A DNA stretch of 64,000 bases from the IMG/VR virus record IMGVR_UViG_3300025133_000092, positions 1-64,000 of that record. One strand, written 5' to 3'. Below the pieces are notes generated by a model, which did no database searches, was not told where the DNA came from, and saw only the letters and a list, made by a program, of their open reading frames with translations. Of this stretch, positions 6,538-47,609 are shown piece after piece (positions within the stretch are counted from its first letter, which is position 1; every line of letters starts with the position of its first letter). Both the position numbers and the translations under genes were made by a program. Origin of the DNA: a virus.

Positions 6538-6884
6538 TCACAGCTCAGCCTCCTCGATGTCAGCTCGCAGCTCGTCGATCCGCTCGGCCAGCTCGACCGA
6601 ACGCTCCCCGTGGTCTTGAAGGCGAACTCGAGCTTCCCCAGCTCCTGCTTCATGGGCCAGGCGTCGCCCAGCAGGAACTGCGGGTCCGACCCCTGAGCCT
6701 CCAGCAGGTGCCCCATGTGGGCGGGAGTGACCTCCTCCTCGAAGGTGTCGAGGAACCGGCCGGATCGGGGGCCCTCGTAGGTCATCTCGTGGATGTCCTT
6801 CATGTCGAGAGACTCGTCGATGAGAGACTCGTCTCCGAGGACCTCGATGCGGAACACGGTCCGGTAGAACTTCTTGTCGGTCAT
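6538..6884 (-). pseudogene. Hypothetical protein with apparent one-base deletion
   Basis: Starts MTDKKFYRTVF at a TGATG overlap with the preceding stop. After KLEFAFK the frame continues as Ser/Arg-rich, low-quality sequence. Restoring one G (a missing C near 6615 on the plus strand) gives DHGERSVELAERIDELRAD and a stop at 6538, a natural helical ending. The corrected protein is 115 residues. The local sequence CTTCAAG is not a classical slippery site, so programmed frameshifting is less likely than mutation or sequencing error. Function unknown. Confidence 0.6.
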
Positions 6885-8017
6885 CACCACTCCCAGGTCG
6901 GCAGGTCATCGTGCTTCGGGCCATCCGCGTCGAGCAGCAGCCAGCAGCAGTTGTTGGTCCGCGCCTTGAGGAACAGGGCCTCCAGGTCATCGGGCATCTC
7001 GGGCCAGTCGTCAGGGTTCTCGGGGACGTGGAGCAGGAAGCCTTCGGGGCGCATCATCCCGCGCTGACGCAGGAAGCTGGCCTCGAGCCACTGATCTCGC
7101 GGCACGTGCCCGTGCTGCGTCTTGATCTCGTCGATCCGGGTCCTGCTCGGTCCGGGGACCATGCGCGCGTACTTGGCGCCGGCCTCCAGCCGCCCGCACG
7201 TCTCCGGGGTGATGTGGGCCGTGCTGAACGCCATCAACGACTCCAGCCCGTGCGTGTTGGGTGGGATGCGCAACACCTCCACGTCCATCGGCATCATCGG
7301 CACCGACCCGTCAGCCCTCCATCGTTCGATCTCAGCGGTGAGCTGCTCGATCCACGCCTCGTCCATGGGCACCGGCACGAGGGCCTGAGCGTTGGCCGCA
7401 ACCGCCGGGAGCGGGCTCGGCCGCTCCACGAGCTCGAAACGCTCGATGCCCTCCGTCATGTCCTCCCAGCGCTCGTAGCACTTCTCGTTGGACCACTCCT
7501 TCGGGATGTCGGGGAACTCGTGGCGGTTGTCCGCCACGATGGACGCTCCGACCGCCTCAGCCACCGTCCGAGACGGGTGAACGTCCACGTCGGTGCCGTG
7601 GCGGTGGTGGTAGAGCAGAACCCAGCAGGTGGGCTCTGCGGGCTTCACGGCTCCGATGAGGTGGCCCTGCACGAACCCCAGCACGTCGCTGTACTTCTCG
7701 TAGTCCGCCTCGGTGTGGTCATCGTCGAGGAAGCTCCCGAACACGCCCAGCATGTTCAACGCCGCCTGCAGACCCTTCCCGTCGGCGAACATCGTCTCGC
7801 ACTCCCCGCACCAGGCGCCGGAGCCTTCCACGATGTGGAGCTTCCCACCGCAGAGCTTGCCGCGGTAGCGCATCCAGTCGCACATCTGCACGGGCACGTA
7901 GCTGCCGCACTCGCCTCGGCAGACCAGCTCGGCTTCGCCGTTCTCCTGGTCGGGGCTGATGCCGAGCGTCCCGTTCGTGCACAGAGGGCACTCAGCCTCC
8001 TCTTCGTTGGTGATCAT
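6884..8017 (-). CDS. Two-part hypothetical protein with N-terminal zinc clusters (377 aa)
   Basis: The first 90 residues contain CPLC, CRGECGSY and WCGECE, suggesting zinc ribbons. Residues about 115-205 form an alpha/beta module ending IERFELVERP. After a Pro/Ala linker a second domain begins (MDEAWIEQLTAEIERW) and runs to the end. It may be a fusion of two genes. The start overlaps the previous stop as ATGA. No family recognised. Confidence 0.55.
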   Translation of the reverse strand: MITNEEEAECPLCTNGTLGISPDQENGEAELVCRGECGSYVPVQMCDWMRYRGKLCGGKLHIVEGSGAWCGECETMFADGKGLQAALNMLGVFGSFLDDDHTEADYEKYSDVLGFVQGHLIGAVKPAEPTCWVLLYHHRHGTDVDVHPSRTVAEAVGASIVADNRHEFPDIPKEWSNEKCYERWEDMTEGIERFELVERPSPLPAVAANAQALVPVPMDEAWIEQLTAEIERWRADGSVPMMPMDVEVLRIPPNTHGLESLMAFSTAHITPETCGRLEAGAKYARMVPGPSRTRIDEIKTQHGHVPRDQWLEASFLRQRGMMRPEGFLLHVPENPDDWPEMPDDLEALFLKARTNNCCWLLLDADGPKHDDLPTWEW

Positions 8018-9263: not shown

Positions 9264-10100
9264 CTACGATTTCCTCCAGCGACGGAGCTCGTCCAGGGCG
9301 GCCTGCTTCCGCATGGCGCTCTGCCGCATCTGGTTGGCGTGGCGGCCCACGTGCCGCATCTGCTCCCGGGCATCGTGGCTGCCTGCCGCCGCCCGCTGGT
9401 AGGTCGGGCTCGCCTTCATCCGCCGCACGCGCCGGTGGTACTGCTTGGGCAGCCCCTTCTGCACGATGGAGAGCATGCCCTCTCGGCCGAGGATGCGGTT
9501 CTTCGTGTACGAGAGGATGCCGGGCCCGCCTTCACCGATGAGGTGCGGCATGCCCTGGATGGTGGTCTTGGCGATGTCGCCCAGGCCGGGGATGTCCTTG
9601 CCCTTTCTTCCGCCCCCGCCGCCACCCGACCGCCGAGCTTCTCGGATCTTCGCCAGCTCGAGCTTTCGCTTGTGCATCAGCATCGTCGTCGACGCGTGAT
9701 CGTCCTCGTGCATGACCCAGTGCGAGTCGTGATCGTGCACGTGGTTGTTGTGGTAGGGGTGCCTCCAGCTGCCGAACTGCCGCTGTCCCGATTCCGGCAC
9801 GGCGATGTTGACCGGCACGAAGCCCAGGTGCTTCTCGAGGTCCTGCTTGGTCAGCACGTGCTTCGGGACGGCCACGCGGTACTTGCCTGCCCCGGTGAGC
9901 ACGCCTTCGGTTCGCATGCGTCCGTGGAGGTTCTTGAAGACGCGGTGCGCTCGAGCCTTCTGCCGGCGCTGGGTCCAGTACTCTGAGGGGCCCTCCTTCA
10001 GCTCGCTCTCGCCCGAGGAGGGGGAGGCGCCTTCGGGGGACTCCTCTACGGGAGCGGCGAGCTTGAAGATCTCCTCTGCGAGGGCGTTTCGGATGATCAC
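9264..10100 (-). CDS. Candidate virion-associated protein with FKLAAP leader (278 aa)
   Basis: Starts at GTG and opens with ALAEEIFKLAAPVEESP, a short helix ending in the FKLAAP motif also found at the start of the helicase at 57.1-58.6 kb and, in variant form, in several virion-block proteins. The centre is His-rich (HPYHNNHVHDHDSHW), then Gly-rich, with a basic C terminus. If the leader marks packaged or processed proteins, this is a virion protein encoded outside the main block. No family recognised. Confidence 0.5.
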   Translation of the reverse strand: MIIRNALAEEIFKLAAPVEESPEGASPSSGESELKEGPSEYWTQRRQKARAHRVFKNLHGRMRTEGVLTGAGKYRVAVPKHVLTKQDLEKHLGFVPVNIAVPESGQRQFGSWRHPYHNNHVHDHDSHWVMHEDDHASTTMLMHKRKLELAKIREARRSGGGGGGRKGKDIPGLGDIAKTTIQGMPHLIGEGGPGILSYTKNRILGREGMLSIVQKGLPKQYHRRVRRMKASPTYQRAAAGSHDAREQMRHVGRHANQMRQSAMRKQAALDELRRWRKS

Positions 10101-12655: not shown

Positions 12656-13126
12656 TCAGCCCTGCTTGATCGCGGCGATGTCCGCTTCGAGCTCGGGGAT
12701 GATCTGGCTGACCTGCCCCATGATCTGCCACAGCACCGCCTTCGGGTTGCCGCTGTTGACGGCCTGGGCGATGAGGGCGGTGATGTCGAGGCCCGCCAGG
12801 ATGATGTCCTGGGCGAGCTCCACCTCGTCCTCGTCGACCCCGAGGTCGTCGACGAGGCTCTTCAGCATCGGGCTGTGGGCCTCGTCCTCGCCCACCTGCA
12901 GCTTGACGATGGAGGTGACGAGGTCGACCACCTGCGGGGCGGAGTTGTCGCCGAGGACCTCCTTCACGCCGTTCTTGACGGCCTCGTAGCCGTCGACCTG
13001 GGTCTTCAGGACGGAGAAGGTGAAGTCGGCGACGGCCTCACCGTCGCTGTCGAGGACGTCGCCTCGGGTGGTAGCCACGGGAGGACTGTTTCGGATGGTG
13101 ATCGGGCGTCGGCGGAATCGGGGCAT
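12656..13126 (-). CDS. Hypothetical acidic helical protein (156 aa)
   Basis: After a basic N terminus (MPRFRRRPITIRN) the protein is acidic and helical (VDLVTSIVKLQVGEDEA, ELAQDIILAGLDITALI). GGAGAA precedes the ATG. The start lies 89 bases inside the preceding gene, an unusually long overlap. A strong hairpin follows the stop. Function unknown; the pattern could suit a small virion or scaffold-like protein. Confidence 0.5.
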   Translation of the reverse strand: MPRFRRRPITIRNSPPVATTRGDVLDSDGEAVADFTFSVLKTQVDGYEAVKNGVKEVLGDNSAPQVVDLVTSIVKLQVGEDEAHSPMLKSLVDDLGVDEDEVELAQDIILAGLDITALIAQAVNSGNPKAVLWQIMGQVSQIIPELEADIAAIKQG

Positions 13127-18291: not shown

Positions 18292-19290
18292 TTGTCTGAT
18301 CAGGCTGCCTACGAGCTGCGCCGCATGCCGCTCGAGTCCTACTTCCAGGCGGAAGTCCCCTACGTCGATTGCACCGGCCTTCTGGGGTTCCTCCGCCAGT
18401 CCACCTTCCACGACCCCCTGCTCGTCGTCGGCCCCACGGGCATGGCGAAGAGCATGTCCGTCTACGCCCTCGCTCAGGAGACGGGGCTGCCCATCATCGA
18501 GTACAGCTGCACCGAAGAGACCCGCGACCTCGACCTCATCGGCGCCTTCGGCCTCGAGGGGGACACCTCGTTCTTCGGGCTCGGAGCCCTCACCACGGCC
18601 ATCGAAGTGGCCAACGAGATGCACGAGCGCTTCGTCGCCAAGACCGAGGCCGGCGACGGTGCCATCCTGCTCATCAACGAGGTCAACGCCCTGCGGCCCC
18701 AGACCCAGAAGACGCTGAACCCGCTCCTGGACTTCCAGGGGACGATCAACGTCCACAAGCTGGGCCGCGCCTTCAGCCTCGACATCGGCGCGAAGCTCTG
18801 GGTCGTGATGACCATGAACCCCAGCGCCTACGGAGGCACCAACGCCCTGAACGACGACTTCAAGCGGCGCGTGCAGCCCATCTTCCTGGACTACCCGCCC
18901 AAGGAGCAAGAGCTGAAGATCCTGATGGGGCTGCGGGCCTCGGCCTGCGACGACGACAAGGCCATCCCGGACGCCGTCTTCGCCGAGAAGGTCGCGGGCG
19001 ACAAGCCCTTCGTCTCGATGCTGCTGGAGCTCGCCGGCGACACCCGGACGGGGACGTTCGAGTACTCGCTGTCCACGTCCGACCTGCACCAGATCTGCCG
19101 CAACGCAGCACTCTGGGGGGTGCCCAAGGCGCTGCTCCTGTCCACCTTCAAGTTCGAGGAAGCGCAGCAGCGCGAGTTCTACGTCAAGAAGGTGCAGGCG
19201 CGCATGGGGGTCGACGTCGCCAGCCTCAACGTGCTGGACGTGCCCAAGGCCAAGCCGAAGCCCAAGAAGCGCCGGAAGGCGACTCCCTGA
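18292..19290 (+). CDS. CobS/MoxR-like AAA+ ATPase
   Basis: A 332-residue protein with GPTGMAKS (47-54), a Walker A of the MoxR/CobS type with Ala in place of the usual Gly; LLINEVN (126-132) as Walker B with Asn replacing the first acidic residue; and MTMNPSAYGG as sensor 1. It starts at TTG with GGAGAG about 4 bases upstream; no ATG or GTG fits the conserved start. MoxR-type ATPases work with VWA-domain partners, and such a partner is encoded at 22312-24159 in the same operon. Large myophages carry cobS/cobT-like pairs of unknown role, probably remodelling a protein or metal centre. Confidence 0.8.
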   Translation: MSDQAAYELRRMPLESYFQAEVPYVDCTGLLGFLRQSTFHDPLLVVGPTGMAKSMSVYALAQETGLPIIEYSCTEETRDLDLIGAFGLEGDTSFFGLGALTTAIEVANEMHERFVAKTEAGDGAILLINEVNALRPQTQKTLNPLLDFQGTINVHKLGRAFSLDIGAKLWVVMTMNPSAYGGTNALNDDFKRRVQPIFLDYPPKEQELKILMGLRASACDDDKAIPDAVFAEKVAGDKPFVSMLLELAGDTRTGTFEYSLSTSDLHQICRNAALWGVPKALLLSTFKFEEAQQREFYVKKVQARMGVDVASLNVLDVPKAKPKPKKRRKATP

Positions 19291-20517: not shown

Positions 20518-21318
20518 GTGGCGGACTTCGACCCCAAGTACGATCACGACTGGGTCGAGCCGGACGGCGACGGCGCAGTGGTGGCCTACTGCCGCCACTG
20601 CGAGTCGACCGCCGAGGGCACCGTCGACCGGCGGTGTCCGGAGCTGCTCTGGAAGGCTCTGGCGGAGAAGACCTCTCGACGACGCCTCCCGGACAGGCGT
20701 CAGGGCTACACCCAGAAGGCGCGCGTCGCCGGCCACAAGATCTTCCTCAAGACGGGAGAGTACGAGGACGGCACGCTCGGCGAGATCTTCGTCGACATGC
20801 ACAAGGAGGGCGCGGCCTTCCGGTCGCTGATGAACTGCTTCGGCATCGCGGTCTCCCTGGGTCTCCAGCACGGAGTGCCCCTGGAGAAGTTCGTGCACCT
20901 GTTCATCTTCAGCCGGTTCGAGCCGAGCGGGATGGTGACGGGCAACGACCGGATCAAGATGTCGACCTCCGTGGTCGATTACATCTTCCGGGAGCTGGCC
21001 ATCAGCTACCTGGGCATGGCCGACCTCGCGCACACCGACGTCACCGAGGAGAACCTCCGTCCTGACACCCTGGGCCACCCCTCCAAGGAGCTGCTCACTC
21101 CCGTAGAGGGGCCGGCTCCAGAGGCCGTAGCGAAGTTCGATGCCGCAGAGGCGTGGAAGGGCAACCCTCACGCTCCCGCGGTCACGATGTCGCGGGAGAT
21201 TGCGGTGGGGGCCGGCTACACCGGCGACAGCTGCTCCCATTGCGGGAGCATGCGGATGAAGCAGTCCGGCACCTGCGGTGTCTGCGAGGACTGCGGAGCG
21301 ACCAGCGGATGTAGCTGA
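20518..21318 (+). CDS. NrdJb-like class II ribonucleotide reductase C-terminal (TSCPD) protein
   Basis: A 266-residue protein starting at GTG directly after the previous stop. Residues about 65-165 ([50 protein letters not shown]) match the C-terminal TSCPD domain of B12-dependent class II ribonucleotide reductase. The end has CSHCG and CGVCEDCG, the terminal zinc and redox Cys region. Some bacteria split NrdJ into NrdJa and NrdJb; only the NrdJb part is seen here, preceded by an extra Cys-rich N terminus. No catalytic NrdJa lies in the window, so it may partner a subunit encoded elsewhere or by the host. Confidence 0.8.
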
Positions 21319-21743: not shown

Positions 21744-22049
21744 ATGTCGGGAGACCTCTCATTCGCTGCACAGGTCCGGGCGTTCCTGGAGTCCCGAAAG
21801 GACAAGGAGCGCCTGGGCCCGGCGCAGCTTCGCTTCCTCGCCAACCCAGAGGCGGACGCTGAGGCCGTGCCCACCCCGATCTTCGACCTACGCCTGGAGG
21901 AGGGACACTGGGAACTCCACATCGAGGGCATCGTGCTCGACGACAGCGGCGACGTGCTCCTGCCCTACGAGGTGGTCCCCGGCGACGACCATGACCCTGA
22001 GGAGCATCCCGCTCGAGTACTCCTCGACGACGACACCCCGCGAGGCTGA
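21744..22049 (+). CDS. Hypothetical acidic protein (101 aa)
   Basis: N-terminal helix (FAAQVRAFLESRKDKERLG), then a beta-rich acidic half (HWELHIEGIVLDDSGDVLL). It is followed one base later by the capsid-fragment gene. No family recognised. Confidence 0.5.
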   Translation: MSGDLSFAAQVRAFLESRKDKERLGPAQLRFLANPEADAEAVPTPIFDLRLEEGHWELHIEGIVLDDSGDVLLPYEVVPGDDHDPEEHPARVLLDDDTPRG

Positions 22050-22050
22050 C

Positions 22051-22302
22051 ATGGCGCGGTACACCATCCCCTTCTTCACCGTCACGTCGCCTGCGGTGGA
22101 CAAACCGGTGAATCGTTGGTCGATCGGGGTCGATTGGGGGGTCTCCTCCCCCGACTACCCGATCACCAAGATCATCGAGGAGCAGTCCATCCGGGACATC
22201 CAGGCCATCGAAGACAGCGCCTTCCTCGAAGCCATGCTCGATGTCCACTACGACGGTGACGCCTTCACCGCTGCTCTGCCCGCAGACACCTACATCTTCT
22301 GA
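22051..22302 (+). CDS. Small protein homologous to a segment of the phage's own major capsid protein (83 aa)
   Basis: Residues 37-55 (PITKIIEEQSIRDIQAIED) align without gaps to capsid-protein residues 125-143 (PITKVIEDNSVKDMQEIED): 12 of 19 identical and the rest mostly conservative. The N terminus (ARY, then FFTVTS) also parallels capsid ARY and FFTISS in the same order. The gene lies between the CobS-like and CobT-like genes, on the opposite strand and 21 kb from the capsid gene, with its own start and stop, so it is not a broken capsid copy. It may bind capsid subunits or mimic the segment as a decoy. The similarity is seen directly; the role is inferred. Confidence 0.7.
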   Translation: MARYTIPFFTVTSPAVDKPVNRWSIGVDWGVSSPDYPITKIIEEQSIRDIQAIEDSAFLEAMLDVHYDGDAFTAALPADTYIF

Positions 22303-25131: not shown

Positions 25132-25869
25132 GTGAGCCTGCTTCAGCCCCTGCGACGCTTCCTGAAGAAGCACCGGATCTACCTGCTCCGCCTCCCCAGC
25201 GAGGACATCACCCCTGGCACCCTGCTGAACAACCAGGGCGAGGTGCTGCAGCACCTGGCGGACCTGGACTGCTTCCCCGAGGACCTGAGCATCAGCCCGC
25301 CCCTGCAGTCCTCCGCGCTGCTGGACCACTGGACCCACACCGTGTCGGTGCCGAACGCCGGCCTGAAGGTGGGGGTGCCTCAGATCGCCTCCTTGCGTGC
25401 CGGCCTCTCCGTCGGCAAGCAGGTCCAGGTGCAGGTGGGTCCGCTGACCCAGAAGAAGCTGGTGCACGACGAGCTCAACCGCATCGGCGAGCCGGACTAC
25501 CTGACCGATCTGGACTACCTGCAGATGGTCAACTCCTCGCTGGACTGCGGGGACATGCGGGAGGTGGTGCGGCTGATGAAGTCCAGGCGCGCGGGCTTCC
25601 CCGTCGAGCGGCAAGTCGACATCGTCGAGTCGACGGTCTACGCCGAGTGGCTGAAGTTCTCCTTCTACGGAGAGGGGCGGGTGGAACTCGGCATCGAGCT
25701 GGAGCAGGCCGTCCTGCAGGCTGTCCAGGCCGACGTAGAGGCGGGAGTGGACATCGAGTGGACCTCCGAGGGGTCGCTGCTCTGGAAGACGCAGTCGGCC
25801 CTGCCCCTGGGCTTCACGGCGGTCCGCTACGCCTGGTGGAACAAGCGCTTCATCAGCTCCACCTTCTGA
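25132..25869 (+). CDS. Candidate bacterial-gasdermin-like pore-forming protein (245 aa)
   Basis: Starts at GTG with the near-consensus site GAGGTGATCC. The order of motifs resembles bacterial gasdermins as I remember them: an N-terminal helix then LLRLPSEDITPGTLL (18-32), beta-strands and helices through the middle, an amphipathic segment VELGIELEQAVLQAVQADVE, and a closing strand LGFTAVRY (226-233), compared with PLVFGFQAVRL-type endings. Length fits the pore domain, but only 12 residues follow the last strand, so an autoinhibitory C-terminal peptide may be missing. No N-terminal Cys for palmitoylation is present. The gene is alone between two strong terminators, like a phage moron. No protease gene is adjacent. 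The assignment is from memory of the family and needs a structural check. Confidence 0.45.
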   Translation: MSLLQPLRRFLKKHRIYLLRLPSEDITPGTLLNNQGEVLQHLADLDCFPEDLSISPPLQSSALLDHWTHTVSVPNAGLKVGVPQIASLRAGLSVGKQVQVQVGPLTQKKLVHDELNRIGEPDYLTDLDYLQMVNSSLDCGDMREVVRLMKSRRAGFPVERQVDIVESTVYAEWLKFSFYGEGRVELGIELEQAVLQAVQADVEAGVDIEWTSEGSLLWKTQSALPLGFTAVRYAWWNKRFISSTF

Positions 25870-27644: not shown

Positions 27645-27674
27645 TCAGACCACCAGGGTCACGCGGATCTGGCC
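27645..27674 (-). repeat. Second copy of the sheath gene 3' end (codes GQIRVTLVV and stop)
   Basis: Read on the minus strand this encodes GQIRVTLVV then TGA, matching the sheath ending NQIRVTLVV then TAG at 28650-28679. Fifteen bases are identical (27658-27672 and 28663-28677) and the remaining codons differ only synonymously. The HNH gene lies between the two copies. This looks like the original sheath 3' end displaced by insertion of the endonuclease gene. Confidence 0.7.
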
Positions 27675-28603
27675 GATTCCCGATCGAGCAGGTCCTGGAG
27701 CCTCTCCAAGTGAGCCTCACCGCCCGTGGTGTTCTTGGTCAAGCGCTCTTCCAGAAGCCCCAGGGCGGCCTCGATGTCGTCCACGGGCTCTGATCCAGGA
27801 GGGTGCGTGGTCCACTGACGCAGCTGCAGGTTCTCCAGGCGGTTGTCGTCCCGCTTCCCATTGATGTGGTGCACGACCTCCTTCGGGCCAAGAAGTCGGT
27901 CGAGATGGGCCTCCATCACCAGACGGTGCTCCAGGACGTTGCCGTACTTGTCGGCGTTGGGGTGCTCCGGCGCGTGCTTGCGGACGTACCCGCCCGAGGT
28001 CCTCCAGCGGGCCTTCCTTCTGGGCCGTCCCCGAGTCTTGTGCTCTCGGAGCTTGTTGCCCTGCTCGTCAATCAGGCCCGCCTGCTCCTGCCTCCGGTGC
28101 TTCTGGCACATGCCGCGCCTCGTCGGCCGGGAGTGGCAGTCTGGGACGGAACAGGCCAGGCCCTCCGCTGACGGGACCCTCTTCAACTCCCGGAGCCGGA
28201 CTCCGTCCTCATCAATGATCCGGCGATAGTACTGCGCGTAGTGGCGACGGCACATCCGGACTCTTCCATTCTCGATCTCCCTGCCGCACCCCTCCAGCCT
28301 GCACACGCCTTCACGGGAGTGGTTGGCGTGGCGCTCTCTCGCCTCCCCCGAAGCGCCCGACATCCGCCGCTGGTAGTGCTTGCTGCACATCCGACGGGCG
28401 ACGATCGGGTCACCGCAGCCATCGACTTCACAGCCGCCGTCCCGGCCCTGCTTCATGGGCCGCAGCGAGGCACCGCGCTCGTCGATGGCGCCGCGACGGA
28501 GCTGCATGTAGTGCGTGCCGCACATCCCTCTGGACTTCGATGGCTTCTCGCAGCCGTCGAGTTTGCAAGGGGGCTTGATCTTCTTGGGCCGTCCACCGGG
28601 CAT
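27659..28603 (-). CDS. HNH homing endonuclease with four zinc-knuckle repeats
   Basis: A 314-residue protein. Four Cys/His repeats span residues about 13-31, 58-76, 101-121 and 151-169, each of the form CxxxxC, then a loop, then MCxxH (for example CEKPSKSRGMCGTHY). The HNH nuclease core follows: EHRLVMEAHL (226-235), VVHHINGKRDDN (243-254) and N258. GGAGG precedes the ATG. It sits between the sheath and tail genes, a normal place for a free-standing homing endonuclease, and its stop region overlaps the displaced sheath 3' end. The knuckles probably recognise the DNA target. Confidence 0.85.
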   Translation of the reverse strand: MPGGRPKKIKPPCKLDGCEKPSKSRGMCGTHYMQLRRGAIDERGASLRPMKQGRDGGCEVDGCGDPIVARRMCSKHYQRRMSGASGEARERHANHSREGVCRLEGCGREIENGRVRMCRRHYAQYYRRIIDEDGVRLRELKRVPSAEGLACSVPDCHSRPTRRGMCQKHRRQEQAGLIDEQGNKLREHKTRGRPRRKARWRTSGGYVRKHAPEHPNADKYGNVLEHRLVMEAHLDRLLGPKEVVHHINGKRDDNRLENLQLRQWTTHPPGSEPVDDIEAALGLLEERLTKNTTGGEAHLERLQDLLDRESARSA

Positions 28604-28649: not shown

Positions 28650-31600
28650 CTAGACGACCAAAGTCACGCGGATCTGGTTCGCCGGGTAGAGCGGCGTCAG
28701 GGTCACGTCGACCAGGATGGTGTCGGGGCTCGACTCGTCCTGCAGCACGTTGTTCAGCTGCGCCGCCGCGATGACCTGCAGCCCGTCGGGGCCGAGGAAG
28801 GCCAGCTGGCCCTGGATCACGGTGGCGAGGTTGTTCAGGAACTGCGGGGTGATGTTGAACCGGCCGATCAGGTTCCGCAGCGCGTTCCGCAGGAACTTGG
28901 CCACGAAGTCGACCGCCTTGGTGATGGACAGCTCCCGCTGTTCCACCGAGCTCGTGTCGGTGGAGAGCTGGTGCCGGCACATGACCGCGCCGCCCGACGA
29001 CTGCTGGAAGAGGATGTACACCCCTCCGCCGGCGATCTGGTCGAGCAGGCTCTTCTTGTAGGTGTCGTGCGACCCCTGGACCGCGCTCAGCCCCGAGATG
29101 GGGAAGTTGGTCAGGGGCTGCGCCGGCGGCTGGTGGCCGATCTGCCCCGCCACCGCGGCGGCGGCGTAGTAGGCCGGCACGACGGCGGTGCCGGCGTCGA
29201 GCTCCGCCGACACCGAGTCCGGGAACAGGTAGAACATCCGCCGGTTCAGGTAGTCCGTGGCGGACGCGGCCACCGCGGCGGCACGGGCCGGCAGGTCCGG
29301 GAGGGAGCTGCCGGGGATCAGCAGCTCGTCCCCGCGGATCTTCAGCGCGTAGGCCACGCTGACCAGCGACGAGGTCAGCTGCGTGGTCGTGTAGAAGCCG
29401 TCGTCGTTGTCCGGCGAGGAGAACGAGTTGCGGAACTGCAGCAGCGTCCCGTTGACCAGCGACAGGCTGTAGCGGCGGAAGTCCCCGCCCACGGTCACCT
29501 CGAGGTAGACCCCGTCGTCCGCGTCGAGCGCAGCCGGGTTGAGTCCGGCGGCCACCAGCTGACCCGTGGGGTTCACGTCGATGGTCATCTCGTTGGGGTT
29601 GGCCGTGGAGTCGCCGATGCCCGAGGCCACCGCTGCCGGGAAGGCGCGCGTCGGCGCCTCCGGTGCGATGAGTCCGATGCGCTCGCCCCGCTGCTCCGCC
29701 GCGCTCATGGCGGTGACGTGCGTGTCGAGCACCAGGTGGACCAGCTCGTTCTCCGTCAGCGGAGCCATCGCGTAGACGTCCTTGGCCTCCAGGTAGTCGA
29801 AGGCCCGGGCGTAGCCGTCCAGCGTGCCCTCGGGCTGCGCGGCGCTGACCTCGTCCACCCCGATGCCGGTGATGGCCGTGGTCGGCGAGTTGAGCAGCGC
29901 GAGGTACATGCCCAGGAAGAGCGGGTTCCGCGCGTCGATGGGCTCACCGATGGCCTCGAGGGTCGCCTGGTCCTCGATGGTCAGCAGCTTCTCCACCGCG
30001 GCGGAGGACGAGCTGACATCGAGGCGGAGTGCCTCGTAGGCCACGTACAGACCAGCGGAGGCCGGGACGAACGGGGCGCCGGTCAGGCTGTTGCGCAGGA
30101 TGCCCGCGCCCAGCACCAGGTTGCCGCTGAGGTCCAGGAAGCAGTCCGGGTTCGGGCGGCCCGAGCCGGCGGCCTCGTCGTTCGCCGGCAGGAAGCCGAG
30201 GATCGAGTCCGCCGTCGAAGCCGCGTCCACGTCGATGGACGAGGCCACTCCGCCCAGGGGCGAGGTGAGGCGCATGAAGGTGGTGGAGATCGAGGCGATG
30301 GCCGCCCCGCCGTGGGCGAGGTTGATCGCCGCGACCGCGTCGTCCAGCGAGTCGCTGCCGAAGGTCACCGTGATCGCGTCACCGCCGTCCAGCGAGTGCT
30401 GGAGGGTCGTGCCGCTCAGGGTGCCTGCGCCGGCGACCGGCGCGTTGGTCATGTCCAGGGTGCCGCCACCGCCGGAGTCGTCCGAGACCGCGACGGTGAC
30501 ACCGTCGCCGGACTCGAAGCTGGTGAACACCAGCTCCCCGGTGGCCGCCGCGGGACCGGAGAAGGTGCCGATGCGGATGTTGCCGGCCCAGGCGAGCTGG
30601 TTGGCCTGCAGGTTCAGCTCCGTCGCGAGGTCTGCGAGGGTGGCATCCGCCGCCTCGGCCGCGCCCATGGTGTGGACCTTGGTGAAGGTGCCGCGGCTGT
30701 CCGTCACCACGACCGTCACGGCCGTACCGCTCAGGGTGGCGATGGGCAGGGCGCCGATGGTCCCGCCCGTCTCCGTCGCGGGGGTCCCGTACTCCTGGTC
30801 CTTGCCGGTGTGCGACGTGGCCAGGGCGACCGAGAAGCCCAGCATGGCGTTCGCTGTGCCGGTCGGCAGCACGACGAGGGTCTGGCCGGACCCCGTCTTC
30901 GTGGTCTGCGCGTGGATCCAGACGTTGGCGCCGTCATCGAAGACGTTCCAGGCGTCGATGCCGGGGATGGCGAGGGCGTCCAGGGCCGCCGCGAGCTGCA
31001 CGGTGTTCGCCGCCGTACCCGCGAGGGTGGACGTCACCTGCGTCTGGGAGATCCCGTCGTCGACCAGCTGGGTGATCAGGGTCAGCCCGGCCAGGGCCAG
31101 CGTGCCCGCGAGAGCCGCGCTGGTCAGGCTGCCGTCGCTCTGGACCTCGGCCTTCTGCGCCGCGTTGGCCGCCAGGTTGCCCGTGAGCACGGCGGCCACC
31201 GGGGCGGGGCTCACCGAGCCCCACTGCAGCCCCTGCGCCTCGAACCACACGTTGCGGGGCGCGAAGGGCACCCCGTGGCTCGGCACGTTGACCTCGCGGT
31301 CGTCGTAGAAGCGGGTGGTGGCGTTGCCCTCGTCGTCGAAGGTCGAGAGCGCCGAGTTCAGCTGCGCCATGCGGAAGCGGCTGGCCTGCACCTCGACGAC
31401 CTCCCACCCCGGGTCGACACCGTCGCTCACCATCGCGTCGCCGGCCCGCACCGAGCTGGCCGCCTGCAACGGGATGTCCGCGCCGCCCCCGGTGAAGCTG
31501 AGCAGCGCGGCGTCGGCGTTGGAGATCGTGCCGGCCTCGGTCCAGCGGCCCAGGCCGAGACCCGCGCCTCCCCAGGAACCGGCGACGCCGTTCTGGAACG

Positions 31601-32366
31601 CCTCGCCCTCGAAGAACTCGATCCAGGGGCTGACGAGGTCGCCGTCGGAGTCGTCCTGGGCCCGGTAGCCGGAACCCTCGACCCGGCGGGACTGCGTGTC
31701 GCCGAACATGGCGGTCATGGCGCTGCCGCCCGCCCGGATGTCGATCGAGGAGAGAGCTCCCCAGGTGTTCGAGCGGATCATCACCTCGGAGGCGCCGCCC
31801 ACCACGACGGAGGCCACGTCCTCGCCGACCGCGGCGTTGATGGCCGAGGCCACTTCGGCGGCCGTGGCCACCGGGGCCGCGGCGGAGATGGTGACGGTCA
31901 CGTCCTGGCTGGTGTCCACCGCGCTGGGGCGGTCGAAGGCGAGCACGAGCACATCGCCGTCGGCCAGGGCCCACGGGGTCGTCTCACCGAAGTCGGTGAC
32001 GATGACGGCGCGGCTGGCCACGTTCGAGGCCGCCAGGAAGGCGGAGCCGAAGGGGCTGCCGTCTCCGCGGGGGAGGGCGATGAGGGAGCCGCCGTAGAAG
32101 AGCGACGCCTCGACCGTGTCCTCCTGGATGTCCAGCTCGGAGATGTTGCCACGCGGGTCCGGGAACGAGGACTGGCTCAGGCTGAGGGGGTACTGGCTGT
32201 AGGACGTCGCCAGGGCGTCGGCGCTCAGCAACCCGTCCACCTGCGTCTCGATCACCTGGAAGGCAGGACCGATGATGCACGCCGGCAGCGTCGCGCTGGC
32301 GATGGTGGGGGAGGTGGTCCGGATTTCCTGGATGACGGTGACACCCGGCTGGGGGATGGCAGGCAT
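28650..32366 (-). CDS. Tail sheath protein (very large, 1238 aa)
   Basis: Begins PAIPQPGVTVIQEI, the classic sheath N terminus. The C-terminal third has the family pattern: LYVAYEALRLDV, then NPLFLGMYLALLN, and VVPAYYAAAAVAGQIG before PLTNFPISG. The middle carries several inserted domains (VASAINAAVGEDVASV; AVAAINLAHGGAAIAS) that make it far longer than the usual 400-700 residues and probably form outer sheath decorations. It contracts to drive the tube into the host. The last nine codons are repeated downstream of the HNH gene. SD-like GAGGAGC precedes the ATG. Confidence 0.85.
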   Translation of the reverse strand: MPAIPQPGVTVIQEIRTTSPTIASATLPACIIGPAFQVIETQVDGLLSADALATSYSQYPLSLSQSSFPDPRGNISELDIQEDTVEASLFYGGSLIALPRGDGSPFGSAFLAASNVASRAVIVTDFGETTPWALADGDVLVLAFDRPSAVDTSQDVTVTISAAAPVATAAEVASAINAAVGEDVASVVVGGASEVMIRSNTWGALSSIDIRAGGSAMTAMFGDTQSRRVEGSGYRAQDDSDGDLVSPWIEFFEGEAFQNGVAGSWGGAGLGLGRWTEAGTISNADAALLSFTGGGADIPLQAASSVRAGDAMVSDGVDPGWEVVEVQASRFRMAQLNSALSTFDDEGNATTRFYDDREVNVPSHGVPFAPRNVWFEAQGLQWGSVSPAPVAAVLTGNLAANAAQKAEVQSDGSLTSAALAGTLALAGLTLITQLVDDGISQTQVTSTLAGTAANTVQLAAALDALAIPGIDAWNVFDDGANVWIHAQTTKTGSGQTLVVLPTGTANAMLGFSVALATSHTGKDQEYGTPATETGGTIGALPIATLSGTAVTVVVTDSRGTFTKVHTMGAAEAADATLADLATELNLQANQLAWAGNIRIGTFSGPAAATGELVFTSFESGDGVTVAVSDDSGGGGTLDMTNAPVAGAGTLSGTTLQHSLDGGDAITVTFGSDSLDDAVAAINLAHGGAAIASISTTFMRLTSPLGGVASSIDVDAASTADSILGFLPANDEAAGSGRPNPDCFLDLSGNLVLGAGILRNSLTGAPFVPASAGLYVAYEALRLDVSSSSAAVEKLLTIEDQATLEAIGEPIDARNPLFLGMYLALLNSPTTAITGIGVDEVSAAQPEGTLDGYARAFDYLEAKDVYAMAPLTENELVHLVLDTHVTAMSAAEQRGERIGLIAPEAPTRAFPAAVASGIGDSTANPNEMTIDVNPTGQLVAAGLNPAALDADDGVYLEVTVGGDFRRYSLSLVNGTLLQFRNSFSSPDNDDGFYTTTQLTSSLVSVAYALKIRGDELLIPGSSLPDLPARAAAVAASATDYLNRRMFYLFPDSVSAELDAGTAVVPAYYAAAAVAGQIGHQPPAQPLTNFPISGLSAVQGSHDTYKKSLLDQIAGGGVYILFQQSSGGAVMCRHQLSTDTSSVEQRELSITKAVDFVAKFLRNALRNLIGRFNITPQFLNNLATVIQGQLAFLGPDGLQVIAAAQLNNVLQDESSPDTILVDVTLTPLYPANQIRVTLVV

Positions 32367-36069: not shown

Positions 36070-38855
36070 AGGTTCGCCGTCGGCTCCATCGCTCGGTACG
36101 CGGCGGCGACGAAGGCGTGCTTCAGGCCGCGGGCGGACAGCGCGGCGTTGATCTCCGCGTCAGCGTCCTCCCACTCCTTCTGCGTGGTCTTCTGGCCCGC
36201 GTGCGACGTCGGGTACTTCGGCTTCGGCGCGTGCGACGTGCTGGACGTCCGCCCACCGGCGGGTCGCTTGCTCTTGGCCCAGTGGCTGTAGGAGCCGTTG
36301 GGGTCGTGGCGCGGTGCCGACTTCGGCTTCGACTTGAAGAGGTCCTCGGCCTTCGACAGGTTCTGGTCCCTCTCGCTCTTCGGAGCAGCGGGGGAGGAGA
36401 CGAAGGGTGCAGGCTGCGGGGACGCCGGTCGCGGCTTCGGGTTGATGATCTCCCCGAAGGCGTTGACCATCTCCTTGCGCTGCTCGTGCTTCCGGATCTC
36501 CTGGCGGATCGCTTCGGCACGCTCCCGCTCCGCCTTCTCTCGGCGGTGCGTGCTGATGGTGCGGTGCATGTGCGCGTCGGCCCGTGCGGGATCGCCCAGG
36601 AGGGACTTCACCCGGTTGCGCTCCGACGTGTCGTAGGCCACCCGCTTGTCAGCGCGAGTGGACCGAGACTTGCGGCCCGCCCGATCACCGAGCGCGGCGC
36701 CACCAGCCACCCCCAGGAGGGTACCCGCAGTCGCGCCCAGACCTCCGTGCCCGAAGTGGTCCCCGATCACTCGGCCCGCGAACATGCCCGGCATGGCTCC
36801 CAGGGTGCCCCCCAAGAAGCGATCTCCCGTGCGGGCACCCGCGACTGCCCTCGAGCGGGTCAGGGGCGCGTGGTCGAGGGTCCCCTTCAGCGCCTTCATG
36901 TAGTGCTCGCGGCGCACATCGAGAGGCACCCGCTCGTCCATCAGGAAGTCGGAGTCGTAGTCGGCGTCCTCGATGTAGGCCTTCTTCGTCCGCCGGTTCT
37001 TCCACGCCTCGGCCAGACGGGCCGGGACGGACTTGACCGCGTCGACGGCCTTGCCGGTCGTCTTCGCCGCAGCGTCGGCCGCCATGTTGCCGCCGACGTC
37101 CTCGACTCGGCTCATCGTGGGATCGACGATGTCGTCCGCGACGGCCTTGCCCCAGTCCTTGACGTAGTTCTTGGTGTGGTGGTCCAGCGACCGCCCCACT
37201 TCCAGGGCTCCCCGTCCCAGGCCGGCTCCGGCGGCGGTACCCGCCACCAGGCCGAGGGTCCGGCGGTTCTTGCGGGCGCGGTGCGTGCCAGCGTCCATGT
37301 GCCCGGTGTCGCGCATCAGCTGGTCGTGGTAGCGCCCCTTGCGCTGCGCCAGGGCGCTGCCGGCCAGTCCCACGGTGCCTCCGCCGATCATCGACAGGGT
37401 GTTCATGGAGAGCGGCTCGGCCTCCTTGTTGCGAAGCACCTCCCGCACCTTCTTCTTGAGGAACTCGGTGGGGACGAAGCCTGCGGCGAGGGAGCCGCCC
37501 GTCGAGGTGATCCGGTCGTGGACCGGCTTGACGGTCTCGTCGATCGTGGGTCCCCAGCTCTTGGCGTAGTCCTTGATGTGGGGATCGACCTCGCGGCCGA
37601 ACTCCAGGGCGCCTCGGCCGACCCCAGCCCCGACACCCGTGCCGACGGCCAGCCCACCGAGCCGCTTGGCCTTGCGCTTCCAGTGGGTCTTCCGGTCCAT
37701 CTGGCCGGTGTCCCGCATCATGCTGTCGTGGTGGGCCGCCCGACGCTGCAAGAGCGCAGTGGTCCCCAGGCCCGCCGCGGCTCCCGCGCCCGTGAAGGCG
37801 TTCTCGATGCTCGCCCGCTTGGCACGGCCGAAGGCTCGACCGGAGCGCGCGTGGTGCTCCACGGCCTGCGCCTGATACCGATCGGAGGCATCCGACAGCC
37901 TCTGCGACCGGATCTTGTTCCGGTTCAACGCCCCGTGGAGAGCCCCGGTGTCACCGGACCTGACCCAGTTGTCCATGGCGCCGTCGACGACGCCGTCGGG
38001 TCGCGCCTTGTGGCGGACCTTGTTCGACAGGCTGAAAGCCCGCTCGCTCTTGTCCGCGGAAGCGCTCATCAGCCTCGACTGACGGCTCCGCAGCGCATGC
38101 CCGGCACCCAGGCCCAGGGCTCCGCCGGCAGCCGCGCCGCCGAGGGCACGACGACGCATCGCCTTGCCGCGCTCCTCCTTCGGCTTCCGGGCCGCGGAGA
38201 GGGCACCGAGCGTCGCACCGACGCCGGCTCCCGCCAAGCCCTCGACGGCAGCGGGGTGGAGCCCCGCCTGCTTCTCAGCTCCGTCGAAAGGGAGACGCTG
38301 CTCATCCTCCAGCGCCTGCGCGAACGCTTCCTTGGCTCGGAGATTGGCCATGAGCCCTGCGGCCTTGACGAACGCCTGCTTCACCTCGCCTCCGCCCGCG
38401 GCTCCCCCCGCGGAGGGGTCAGCTGCCGGCGGTGCTCCGCCTGCGGCAGCCGGGTCCATCTGGGGCGGCTGGCGGGGCTCCTGGCCCGGCGGGAAGGTGG
38501 GGGGCATGTTCGGGTCGGGCTGGTTGGCCTGGGCCGCCTGGTCCTCGAGACCCTGCTGCGCCTGCGCCTCCTCTTCCTGGGCCGCGGCCTCCTCCTCGGC
38601 CATGGCTGCCTGCTCGGCCTCCCGGTCCTTGACGACCTTGAGGGCGGCGCCGACCGCGGCACCGATGTCCTCGGGCGTGGCGCCGGAGCTGCCATCGACC
38701 TTCGGGGGTCCGGGCGGGGTGGGAGCCGTCACCGAGGCGAGCTTCAGCAGCTCGTCGTTCGACATCTCGTGCATGCCCAGGTCGCGGCGGGAGCGGAGAT
38801 CCGCCGCCTGCTTCTCACGCTCCTGGCCGACCTCGAGGAGAAACTTGTCCAGCAT
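36066..38855 (-). CDS. Large glycine-zipper virion protein (929 aa)
   Basis: Acidic Pro/Gln-rich N terminus, then repeated Gly/Ala zippers separated by basic helices (GLAGAGVGATLGALSAARK, GGTVGLAGSALAQRKG, TGVGAGVGRGALEFG, GGTLGAMPGMFAGRVIG). Related sentences recur inside the protein (DSMMRDTGQMDRKTHWKR and DQLMRDTGHMDAGTHRAR), so it grew by internal duplication. KQAF, KEAF, KKAY and KHAF motifs occur through it. Likely an internal capsid or ejection protein. Confidence 0.55.
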   Translation of the reverse strand: MLDKFLLEVGQEREKQAADLRSRRDLGMHEMSNDELLKLASVTAPTPPGPPKVDGSSGATPEDIGAAVGAALKVVKDREAEQAAMAEEEAAAQEEEAQAQQGLEDQAAQANQPDPNMPPTFPPGQEPRQPPQMDPAAAGGAPPAADPSAGGAAGGGEVKQAFVKAAGLMANLRAKEAFAQALEDEQRLPFDGAEKQAGLHPAAVEGLAGAGVGATLGALSAARKPKEERGKAMRRRALGGAAAGGALGLGAGHALRSRQSRLMSASADKSERAFSLSNKVRHKARPDGVVDGAMDNWVRSGDTGALHGALNRNKIRSQRLSDASDRYQAQAVEHHARSGRAFGRAKRASIENAFTGAGAAAGLGTTALLQRRAAHHDSMMRDTGQMDRKTHWKRKAKRLGGLAVGTGVGAGVGRGALEFGREVDPHIKDYAKSWGPTIDETVKPVHDRITSTGGSLAAGFVPTEFLKKKVREVLRNKEAEPLSMNTLSMIGGGTVGLAGSALAQRKGRYHDQLMRDTGHMDAGTHRARKNRRTLGLVAGTAAGAGLGRGALEVGRSLDHHTKNYVKDWGKAVADDIVDPTMSRVEDVGGNMAADAAAKTTGKAVDAVKSVPARLAEAWKNRRTKKAYIEDADYDSDFLMDERVPLDVRREHYMKALKGTLDHAPLTRSRAVAGARTGDRFLGGTLGAMPGMFAGRVIGDHFGHGGLGATAGTLLGVAGGAALGDRAGRKSRSTRADKRVAYDTSERNRVKSLLGDPARADAHMHRTISTHRREKAERERAEAIRQEIRKHEQRKEMVNAFGEIINPKPRPASPQPAPFVSSPAAPKSERDQNLSKAEDLFKSKPKSAPRHDPNGSYSHWAKSKRPAGGRTSSTSHAPKPKYPTSHAGQKTTQKEWEDADAEINAALSARGLKHAFVAAAYRAMEPTANL

Positions 38856-43529: not shown

Positions 43530-44693
43530 CTAGAAGATGAACACCTCGGGGAAGGTGCCACCCGCCGCGACGCGGTTGTTGGTGATCTCGAGCGCATCCT
43601 CGTTCGCCGGCGTCCGGGTCGCGAAGTTCGCGTTGGTGACCGCGTTGGGGGTCACCGAGCCGGAGTACAGCTCGAGCTTGGCGACGGCCGAGATGTTGCC
43701 GAAGCCCATCCCGATGTCTTCCCAGCTCTGCCACATGATCCGGTTCGCGATCTTGTCGATGTAGAACTTGACGTCGTTGAGGATGTAGAAGAACCCGAAG
43801 AACTCCGGCGCGGCGAAGATGTAGATGTTCCCGTCGCGCAGGATGTTGTTCTTGATCGTGCGGATGCACTTCATCCCCAGGAGGATGGAGTACTTGTACC
43901 CGTCGACCAGGGTCTCCGAGGTGATCTGCGAGCCCAGGTCCTCGGCCGTCCACTCCAGGATGGAGGCCCAGTCCGACTCCGTCAGGAGCACGCGCTCCGG
44001 CTGGAGCCGCTTCTGGAGCAGCACCTGGAACAGGCGGACGAAGTCGGGGCGCTGGACGGCGCGGACGATGTAGTCGTCGGCGGCGGCAGCGAGGGCCAGG
44101 GAGCCCTTGATCTTCGACCCGCGGAGGGTGCCGGTGGCGTCGGTGTCGAGGCCGCCCAGGACGGCCGCGGCGTTGACGTTGGTCCGGCTGAAGGCGACGT
44201 CGCCCGCGTTGACCTCGTTCTGGAGGAACTCGACCATGGACTCGAGGTGGAAGCAGAACTCCCGGTCCTCGATCTCCTGCATGTCCTTCACCGAGTTGTC
44301 CTCGATGACCTTGGTGATGGGCATGCGGTAGGCGAGCAGCTCCTGCTCCACCTTCTCGAACTTCTCGCTCGAGATGGTGAAGAAGCCGATCGCGAAGCGG
44401 GGCGCGTCGATGTAGCGCGCCGTGGGCTCGCCACGGAACGACATCGCCATGGCCCGGCTCTGCGGCTCGACCTCTTCGATGCGGATGAGGGTGTCGTGCG
44501 TCAGGCTGACCTGGCACTGCGACGGGTCGATCCCCTTGGCGCCCATCACCTTGCGGGCGAAGGACTCCTCACGGAGGTGATCCCGGATGAACTCGCCGCC
44601 GTAGGCGGCCAGCTTCTCCCGGCCCCCTTCGGTCTGGGCGAGCCCCTGGAAGTTCTCGTTCATGAGCTGCGAAGCAGCGGCGTCGAAGGACAT
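43530..44693 (-). CDS. Major capsid protein
   Basis: A 387-residue protein with the features of an HK97-fold capsid protein of large myophages: a helical N-arm (GGEFIRDHLREESFARKV), then RAMAMSFRGEPTARYID, FFTISSEKFEKVEQELLAY and the long-helix region PITKVIEDNSVKDM, and a strand-rich end (ALEITNNRVAAGGTFP). AAAGGAG is 7 bases before the ATG at 44691-44693, which I prefer to the ATG two codons earlier. It is preceded in the operon by scaffold-like and protease genes and followed by a terminator. Fragments of it recur at 22051-22302 and 61486-61938. Confidence 0.85.
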   Translation of the reverse strand: MSFDAAASQLMNENFQGLAQTEGGREKLAAYGGEFIRDHLREESFARKVMGAKGIDPSQCQVSLTHDTLIRIEEVEPQSRAMAMSFRGEPTARYIDAPRFAIGFFTISSEKFEKVEQELLAYRMPITKVIEDNSVKDMQEIEDREFCFHLESMVEFLQNEVNAGDVAFSRTNVNAAAVLGGLDTDATGTLRGSKIKGSLALAAAADDYIVRAVQRPDFVRLFQVLLQKRLQPERVLLTESDWASILEWTAEDLGSQITSETLVDGYKYSILLGMKCIRTIKNNILRDGNIYIFAAPEFFGFFYILNDVKFYIDKIANRIMWQSWEDIGMGFGNISAVAKLELYSGSVTPNAVTNANFATRTPANEDALEITNNRVAAGGTFPEVFIF

Positions 44694-44720
44694 TCTCATT
44701 CTCCTTTCGGGAGCCGCTGC

Positions 44721-45677: not shown

Positions 45678-47609
45678 CTAGTAGCCGGGGATGGACGGGG
45701 TGACGCTGTCGACCCCGGTGTCACCGCCGGGCATGCCGACGACGTCGGTGGGGGGCCGGTTCGACTCGCCCTTGTGGCGGGCGGTGAGGTCGAGGGCCTC
45801 GCGGAAGGCGACGGCCTTGTCGTCCGGGGCGGTCGAGCCTCCGCCGGACTCCTGGATGGTCAGGCCCGAGGCGGCGTCGACGTTGCCCTCGCCGCTCATG
45901 GTCCCGCCGCCCTGGTCGGCCATCTTGATCAGCTGGCCGGGATCGATCTCACCGCGGAGGGCGCGGTCCAGCAGCTCGGCGTTGGCGAGGCTGGCGAGCT
46001 TGATCTGCGCCTCGTCGGGGGCGGCCTTCTTCTCGTTGCCGTCCTTCAGGTCCCACTGCTTGTTGGTGGCCTTGCGCAGCTTCTGGTTCAGCTTGGCTGC
46101 GCCCGCACCCACGAGGCCGCCTCCCGCGGCACCGACCGTGCCACCGATCGCCGCGCCACGGCGCATGTCTCCGTCGGTGAGGTAGGCGTGGCCCGCACCC
46201 CCCAGGGCGCCCAAGGTACCGTAGCCGGCGGCTCCGAGCGCTCCCGTCACCTTGGGGTTCTCCGACACGGTGCGGTAGGCCCGCCCCGCCCCGCTGTCGT
46301 GGTTCGCCGCGACGCTGTGGGGCACCATGAGCGCCGTCAGCGCCTTGCCCCCTCGACCGGCCGTCTTCAGGGCCGACTGGCCCTTGCGCTCGGCCATGTT
46401 GCGCCGGTGAGCGTCCAGCAGCTTCCCCTGGTGCTTGGTCCACTTGTTCTCTGCGTGCTGCAGGAGGGCGCCCGTTCCGGCGCCAAGGGCGCCACCGACT
46501 GCGCCCCCCAACCTCTTGCTGCCTCCGCTGACGTGGGCGTCGAGGGCGCCGACTCCGGCACCGATGGCGCCGCCGACCAGCGCTCCCCGGGTCTTCGACT
46601 TGTGCGGCCGGTTGGCCAAGCCCTCCATCGACACACGGCGGCGAGCGTTCCGGTACTGCTTGCCCGAGACGGCCAGCTTGCTGACGCCGCTGGCGCTGAG
46701 GTTCTTGCTGGTGACGTCGTCGTGCTTCTTGCTGAAGGCGGGGTGGCTCAGGACCTTGGCGAGGTCGCCGGCCATGTGCTGCTTGGCCTGCGCCTTCGTG
46801 TACTTGATCGCCGAGGCGCTGGACATGACCTCGGAGGGCTTCGTGCTGCGGGGGCCTTCGCCCCAGGCGTGGGCGCCCTTGGGCTTGCCGAGCGGGCCCT
46901 GGCTCTTGCCGCCCGAGATCTTCGCGGTCTTGTTGCCCTCGTCCTTGGCCGGATCGTGGCTGAACTCGCCCGCGGTCTTCATGATCTTGCCCCAGGCCGT
47001 GACCTTGCTGGCAGCGGACTTGGTGCGGATCGGGCCATCCTCGGGGTAGTTGGCGCCGCCGGGGCGATCGTTGAGGTCGGTGGGCAGCGCGTCGGGGGCG
47101 TGCCCGGGGGCGATCGACGCCACCGACTTCGGGCTGCGGGGGAGCTGGAACTGCGACGGCGCCTTCGCCGTCGCGCGCTGCTGCCGACCGCCCTCACCAC
47201 CGGGGCGGGAGCCGCGGTCGTTGGCCAGGGCCGTCGACGGCGCCTTGCCCGGGATGATGCCCTTGCCCATCGAGGGGCTCTTGGGGAGCTGACCGACCGC
47301 CGCGGCGATCTTCATCTTCAGCTTCGGGTCGGCCTCGACCTGCGCGACGATCTCGTAGGCCTGCTTGACCTGCTCGAGGCTCGTCTCGTCGGAGTCCTCG
47401 TCGGTGAAGTTGCCGGCCTCGATCTCGTCGGCCACGAACTCCAGGGCGGAAGCGAGCTTCTCCCCTTCGTCGGCCAGGCCCAGATCTTCGACCTGACCAC
47501 TGGGAGTTGCCGGCTCCTCCTGGGGAGCCGCGGCGGCGTGCTTGTGCATGAGTGCTCGCGTGTCCGCGAGAACCCCACCGACCATCTTCTCGAGAGAGAA
47601 ACCCTGCAT
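45678..47609 (-). CDS. Glycine-zipper virion protein (643 aa)
   Basis: Starts at ATG 47607-47609 with GAGGAG upstream. Acidic N third (ALEFVADEIEAGNFTDED), a long basic disordered middle, then zippers (GALVGGAIGAGVGALDAH, GGAVGGALGAGTGALL, GGTVGAAGGGLVGAGAA). It contains EKKAA and IKLASLA near the end. It lies among capsid genes, so it may be an internal head protein or part of the scaffold core. Confidence 0.5.
   Translation of the reverse strand: MQGFSLEKMVGGVLADTRALMHKHAAAAPQEEPATPSGQVEDLGLADEGEKLASALEFVADEIEAGNFTDEDSDETSLEQVKQAYEIVAQVEADPKLKMKIAAAVGQLPKSPSMGKGIIPGKAPSTALANDRGSRPGGEGGRQQRATAKAPSQFQLPRSPKSVASIAPGHAPDALPTDLNDRPGGANYPEDGPIRTKSAASKVTAWGKIMKTAGEFSHDPAKDEGNKTAKISGGKSQGPLGKPKGAHAWGEGPRSTKPSEVMSSASAIKYTKAQAKQHMAGDLAKVLSHPAFSKKHDDVTSKNLSASGVSKLAVSGKQYRNARRRVSMEGLANRPHKSKTRGALVGGAIGAGVGALDAHVSGGSKRLGGAVGGALGAGTGALLQHAENKWTKHQGKLLDAHRRNMAERKGQSALKTAGRGGKALTALMVPHSVAANHDSGAGRAYRTVSENPKVTGALGAAGYGTLGALGGAGHAYLTDGDMRRGAAIGGTVGAAGGGLVGAGAAKLNQKLRKATNKQWDLKDGNEKKAAPDEAQIKLASLANAELLDRALRGEIDPGQLIKMADQGGGTMSGEGNVDAASGLTIQESGGGSTAPDDKAVAFREALDLTARHKGESNRPPTDVVGMPGGDTGVDSVTPSIPGY

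Follow-up and report, generated by a model that had tools for sequence, protein, structure and literature searches.

A small phage gene made of a capsid E-loop and spine-helix fragment, with similar genes in its nearest relatives

Comparison at the sequence level showed that a small gene, P0001, encodes by itself part of an HK97-type capsid protein, namely the E-loop strand and the start of the spine helix. The gene lies in a window of 64,000 nucleotides (positions 1 to 64,000 of the IMG/VR virus record IMGVR_UViG_3300025133_000092), the window being the whole stretch of DNA that we analysed. The same comparisons demonstrate that the clade of this phage repeatedly puts capsid pieces, chiefly the spine-helix segment also present in P0001, in small genes that lie apart from the structural block. 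In one relative, G002, this segment was recently copied, with the register kept, from that phage's own capsid gene.

When the window was searched in six frames with P0001, the sole significant match outside the gene was the capsid ORF at 43533-44720 on the minus strand. As aligned by blastp (E 2e-8), the two proteins are identical at 24 of 65 positions, with 11 gap positions, and phmmer gave the same pairing (E 3e-5, and E 1.2e-5 in a separate genome search). Against a profile built from 67 capsids, P0001 reached E 5e-14; the same profile found nothing below E 1.7 in the reversed window, and the reversed and shuffled controls rule out chance similarity. The match covers only profile positions 86-154 and consists of the E-loop strand (RYTIPFFTVTS) and the spine helix (PITKIIEEQSIRDIQAIED..F). 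The near-invariant capsid linker EKFEKxEQELLAYEM is gone, and in its place stands unrelated sequence, 8 residues longer than in every capsid seen. Conserved capsid positions are retained at 17 of 21 sites in strand and helix and at 1 of 12 linker sites (Fisher p 1e-4; the linker, however, may have been exchanged in a single event). A frameshifted capsid linker was considered as the origin of this sequence and rejected, since the other two frames contain no EQELLAY-like sequence. The initial annotation had described a stand-alone gene for a long-helix capsid fragment, diverged rather than recently copied, and had named profile alignment to capsid families as a check; for P0001 all of this was borne out. 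The match is wider than the ungapped 19-residue block that it gave, as strand and helix are both matched around the replaced linker.

The P0001 frame carries the codon bias of the phage (LLR +31.5, with codon statistics trained on the phage's own genes), and a Shine-Dalgarno-like GAGG lies just 5' of its ATG at 22051. The protein may nevertheless be 103 aa long, because a sliding codon score switches from the frame of the upstream gene to that of P0001 at about 21970-21990, and a start at ATG 21991 lengthens the protein by 20 residues and improves the match with the capsid profile by 4.4 bits. This longer form overlaps the 3' end of the upstream gene, and no good Shine-Dalgarno motif was found at ATG 21991. 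One long fusion with the upstream gene was also considered and discarded, as the fused frames gave no longer capsid match. Predicted alone, P0001 has a poor fold, with one helix and a pLDDT of 50.

The CobS/CobT-like setting given in the initial annotation was confirmed, with an AAA+ ATPase at the head of the cluster and a weakly matching VWA protein downstream (Table 1). Only 9 bases separate the P0001 stop from the start of the VWA gene, and this position directly upstream would suit a partner of the MoxR/VWA pair, P0001 serving as an adaptor, or as a tag marking the substrate, by which the chaperone is guided to the capsid protein. However, the two similar genes described below, G025-B and G002-B, do not lie beside any detected relative of the VWA gene, for which those records contain no match, and we regard this role as very improbable. 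The same cluster encodes a gasdermin-like protein (25132-25869, plus strand; PADLOC bGSDM E 3e-11), whose product gave weak phmmer matches to the solved bacterial gasdermins 8sl0 and 7n51 (E 0.35-0.49); a gasdermin encoded by a phage would be unusual. A separate gene at 20518-21318 on the plus strand encodes a TSCPD domain (E 4e-10), and its product also matches the C-terminal end of a phage ribonucleotide reductase large-subunit family (PHROG 84, 7e-14).

Table 1. Features of the window and of the related records G025 and G002
Feature	Location	Strand	Basis or remarks
CobS/MoxR-like AAA+ ATPase, head of the P0001 gene cluster	18325..19290	+	Pfam AAA_5 1.4e-14; PHROG 249 4e-17
Upstream small gene, 101 aa, without known family	21744..22049	+	
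P0001, longer alternative form, 103 aa	21991..22302	+	MTLRSIPLEYSSTTTPREAD + P0001; would add E-loop strand 1
P0001, stand-alone capsid-fragment gene, 83 aa	22051..22302	+	Open ORF, capsid homology, codon bias
Parts of P0001			E-loop strand 2 (aa 3-13); replaced linker, +8 residues; N-terminal half of spine helix (aa 37-58); short C-terminal tail
VWA (CobT-like) protein, 615 aa	22312..24159	+	Pfam VWA E 0.011, below cut-off
Major capsid protein, HK97 fold, 389 aa	43530..44699	-	PHROG 2522 major head protein E 4e-12
Capsid segment matching P0001 (E-loop strand, linker, spine-helix start)	44235..44405	-	Model helix 128-164
Second capsid-fragment gene, 150 aa	61486..61938	+	Capsid N-arm piece aa 80-113; weaker portal-like piece aa 7-39
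G025-B, 78 aa	L068:12809-13045	+	...EDLRHYRFDIIKIIEDQCIADIQRIEDQRFFDILEAL; capsid profile E 1e-7
G002-B, 160 aa	L062:5460-5942		Contains RMPITKVIESSSMKDWFGLEEEHFF; capsid profile E 1e-4
Gene A of G002	L062:4930-5463	+	LIKWQSWEYVGIE and GNLAAIKKLELK, weakly like another capsid stretch

The capsid gene of the phage lies 21 kb from P0001 on the opposite strand, and the AF2 model of its product (mean pLDDT 70) matched HK97 entries in Foldseek at E about 1e-9. The phage's own capsid, which had been named as the source of the fragment, is one of two candidate sources. P0001 is slightly closer to capsids of other clades (L093/L094-type) than to its own, at 48% versus 37% identity, but a tree test does not reject its placement next to the phage's own capsid clade (p-AU 0.14). 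The data are compatible with either source, and proof at the nucleotide level of copying from a phage's own capsid gene comes only from G002. Replacement and silent changes in P0001 amount to 6.4 and 2.9 codons, compared with 4.3 and 5.8 between capsids at the same distance. This raised replacement-to-silent ratio suggests that P0001 is under altered or relaxed, and in any case weak, constraint.

In order to place P0001 among related phages, 28 IMG/VR capsid relatives were compared, all of them metagenomic contigs. P0001 matched one capsid in each of the 28 records except G025, where the match (12947-13033) is a stand-alone gene. We then scanned 3,659 ORFs from the window and seven related records with the capsid profile. 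Six non-capsid hits were found at E<0.05, all in the window, G025 or G002; reversed ORFs gave 0 hits and three shuffles gave 1 hit at E<=0.5. The capsids of G025 and G002 are the nearest to the phage's own (78-80%), so that the search for a similar small gene in related phages, suggested in the initial annotation, found one in each of the two nearest relatives and extended its claim to G025-B and G002-B. Both match within capsid profile positions 123-157, a region that P0001 also covers. At one helix position Asn stands in 65 of the 67 motif-bearing sequences, and the sole Gln among the 67 is that of P0001; G025-B also has Gln there. Outside the helix the three proteins have little in common, and the remainder of each could not be aligned. 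All three fit a proposed stand-alone spine-helix family, defined as a small gene outside the structural operon with an in-register match within about 123-157.

Homologues of a further gene, gene A, precede both G025-B and G002-B. G025-B adjoins its gene-A homologue, near RNase HII, and G002-B is placed after a 675-aa ORF that we read as a DNA polymerase. Together with the AAA+ and VWA genes of the window, these neighbours indicate that the setting of the three genes is non-structural. In gene A of G002, WQSWEYVG and GNLAAIKKLELK resemble the capsid sequence ITWQSWEDIG-MGIGNIAAVAKLELY, split by about 80 residues; gene A in G025 ends AIKKLELK. The G025-B product starts with a twin-arginine signal-like SRREFLK (Pfam TAT_signal E 0.001, below cut-off).

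No stand-alone spine-helix gene was found in two larger records that belong to other clades (G024, G027). Of 335 IMG/VR matches to P0001, the best 80 were all capsid ORFs, some cut by contig ends, and 46 further records each gave one match, the capsid. The whole-record searches of these 46 records and of the 28 capsid relatives are less sensitive than the ORF scan, and that of the 28 missed G002-B. Searches of INPHARED and PLSDB gave no convincing match. A codon-level pattern scan recovered G025-B and four matches without a recognisable relative. On these searches we rejected a widespread family. A bacterial or satellite source was likewise rejected, as three genome-contig matches were all capsid ORFs in MAGs.

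The second capsid-fragment gene of the window matches the N-arm of the capsid profile at E 1e-4 to 3e-4; its match to a portal protein is less certain (portal profile E 0.005; PHROG 9232 portal E 0.008). Like G025-B, it lies near RNase HII. It is this gene, taken together with P0001, G025-B and G002-B, that points to repeated capture of capsid pieces into small genes by the clade.

Other possible structural fragments were also seen. The product of 6884-8017 (minus strand; 377 aa) has a DUF5983 domain (5e-14) and, weakly, a portal-like stretch, EIERWRADGSVPMMPM; a larger portal profile raised the E-value of the portal match from 0.014 to 0.73, and this match is not claimed. Residues 235-272 of the product of 9264-10100 (minus strand) partially match (E 7e-4) residues 50-87 of the family of the structural-block gene 53380-54588, and may be another captured fragment. 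In G012, a gene shortly after the capsid gene (L070:15767-16654, plus strand) encodes a Cys-rich protein of 295 aa that looks HNH-like to the eye but is not recognised as such by Pfam; its C-terminus is a portal piece (portal profile 134-177, E 7e-8, and 212-240). This fusion of a portal fragment to a possible homing endonuclease suggests one way in which structural pieces spread. The portal ORFs G006:C1:73700-78574 (1634 aa) and G027:C1:72514-75738 (1098 aa) show a match interrupted near profile position 321, and in G006 also near 396; the interruptions are probably inteins. In the window, an HNH endonuclease gene (27659-28603, minus strand; HNH_3, 3e-7) adjoins a large ORF on the same strand, 28650-32366, read as a tail sheath.

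Evidence for recent copying came from G002 and its sister genome G076, which are 99.5-99.6% identical on both flanks of gene B. Gene B itself reads GACCGCATGCCGATCACCAAGGTGATCGAGTCTTCG in G002 and GACCGCAAGCTGGTCACAGGGCACTGGGTCGAGAAGACCCAG in G076. The G002 allele contains 29 nt, ACCGCATGCCGATCACCAAGGTGATCGAG, that match G002's own capsid gene exactly, in the same frame and with the helix register kept; G076 lacks this capsid-identical stretch. It is the only dispersed exact repeat of at least 22 nt in the G002 contig (105,937 bases). Among 73 polymorphic patches between the two genomes, only the capsid patch has a long dispersed donor, and short-patch copying was accordingly rejected as a general habit; a second patch is a local duplication. 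L221, a contig from another IMG/VR assembly, carries the same G002-type gene B and could derive from the same sample; the records G002 and G075 may be two assemblies of one sample. Replacement has also affected the C-terminal portion of gene B (G002 45739-45916 versus G076 37684-37726), and two such changes between near-identical genomes indicate that gene B is a local hot spot of change.

The G002-B patch has a short shared sequence at each of its ends (ACCGCA and TCGAG). This would fit a process in which illegitimate recombination or template switching places short pieces of the capsid gene in small genes, where they drift until lost, with no benefit to the phage. The weak constraint on P0001 relative to silent change and the differing remainder of each carrier protein are also in line with such non-adaptive capture. 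Against it, the pieces come from the capsid and perhaps the portal but none from terminase, sheath or protease (93 families, with antisense families, contig-edge pieces and repeat-like structural paralogues excluded by eye), the three carriers hold the same segment in the sense frame, and P0001 retains codon bias, a start signal and the conserved strand and helix positions. We consider capture without function somewhat unlikely.

Our tentative preference is that P0001 acts by molecular mimicry as a non-activating decoy, whose likeliest partner would be a host protein that senses capsids in the manner of CapRel or Thoeris. Capsid protein as a trigger of host defence is familiar from Lit with the T4 Gol peptide. 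The P0001 peptide would show the strand and spine-helix surface before or beside the real capsid and would occupy a partner that recognises this surface, most likely such a sensor, which would be held without being triggered; early expression, sensor binding and non-activation are all steps that we infer. This reading is supported by the homology and its controls, G025-B and G002-B, the shared Gln, the 29-nt in-register copy, the retained strand and helix positions, and the non-structural setting. It gains some plausibility from published sensors that use P0001's part of the capsid: the antitoxin domain of CapRel contacts the P-domain beta-sheet and spine helix (PMC9712102), and E-loop or P-loop changes in the phage head protein abolish activation of Thoeris (PMC11312562). 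However, Thoeris is thought to sense the capsid hexamer (PMC11312562), which a fragment cannot form, and the decoy reading is further weakened by the poor predicted fold of P0001 alone, its weak constraint, and the little that the three spine-helix genes share outside the helix. Moreover, Gp57, the capsid that triggers CapRel, could not be aligned to the phage's capsid by profile. Owing to this failed alignment and to the apparent hexamer sensing by Thoeris, we hold interference with assembly and non-adaptive capture at nearly equal weight.

Interference with assembly would have the strand and helix of P0001 enter the P-domain/E-loop contacts between subunits, delaying the phage's own assembly or poisoning that of a co-infecting relative. 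P0001 does carry the E-loop and spine elements of these contacts, and it is by the E- and P-loops that the hexamer is held together (PMC11312562). Some satellites and prophages are known to interfere with the assembly of virions (PMC10884400), and the slightly greater likeness of P0001 to capsids of other clades would suit a poison against rivals. The G002 patch, in contrast, copies that phage's own capsid and fits such a poison poorly, and loss of the linker, with 1 of 12 conserved positions kept, should hurt domain swapping. On balance an assembly modulator appears unlikely.

Returning to the decoy reading, it can be widened to the whole large-phage clade, which would keep spine-helix-mimic genes and refresh them with short copies taken from its own capsid gene; the peptide decoy would then track the capsid and blind capsid-sensing hosts. 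This broader proposal is speculative, and we think it unlikely. Bacterial immune proteins that read the capsid are a recent discovery, and against them phages would have to shield an essential, conserved protein. Our literature search found no phage-encoded capsid-fragment decoy. P0001, made of what may be the capsid element that sensors read, with similar genes in the clade and a fresh copy from the capsid gene in G002, is a concrete candidate for such counter-defence. Should P0001 prove to be an assembly poison or a captured scrap instead, it would provide a clear example of small phage genes arising from structural genes.

In comparison with known proteins, P0001 shows sequence homology to HK97-fold major capsid proteins (MCPs; the PHROG 2522 group, IMG/VR relatives and, distantly, Salmonella phage Arash) over the E-loop strand and the start of the spine helix, with up to 48% identity (tblastn). 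It represents about 50-60 of about 380 MCP residues; the P-domain sheet, A-domain and E-loop-to-helix linker are missing or replaced, and at 83-103 aa it lacks the complete N-arm, P-domain and A-domain for shell formation. As described in the publications on CapRel-SJ46 (PMC9712102) and Thoeris ThsB1/B2 (PMC11312562), sensing by these systems involves the capsid region that P0001 represents, with strand, spine helix and E-loop. CapRel-SJ46, Thoeris and Lit are host sensors of the whole capsid protein, whereas P0001 is a fragment encoded by the phage. Phage ICP1 encodes a chimeric nuclease (PMC8263062). As in P0001, part of a protein of another element has been captured and made into a phage gene, but the captured piece targets a nuclease, and P0001 has no effector domain. 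The domain in the ICP1 enzyme was reportedly taken from its satellite. The satellite capsid-size redirectors (PLE, SaPI rcm) and the prophage tail-assembly blocker Tab are also small proteins that act on virion assembly, and we know of no derivation from capsid sequence for any of them. PLE and SaPI rcm are encoded by satellites, whereas P0001 is derived from a capsid and encoded by the phage.
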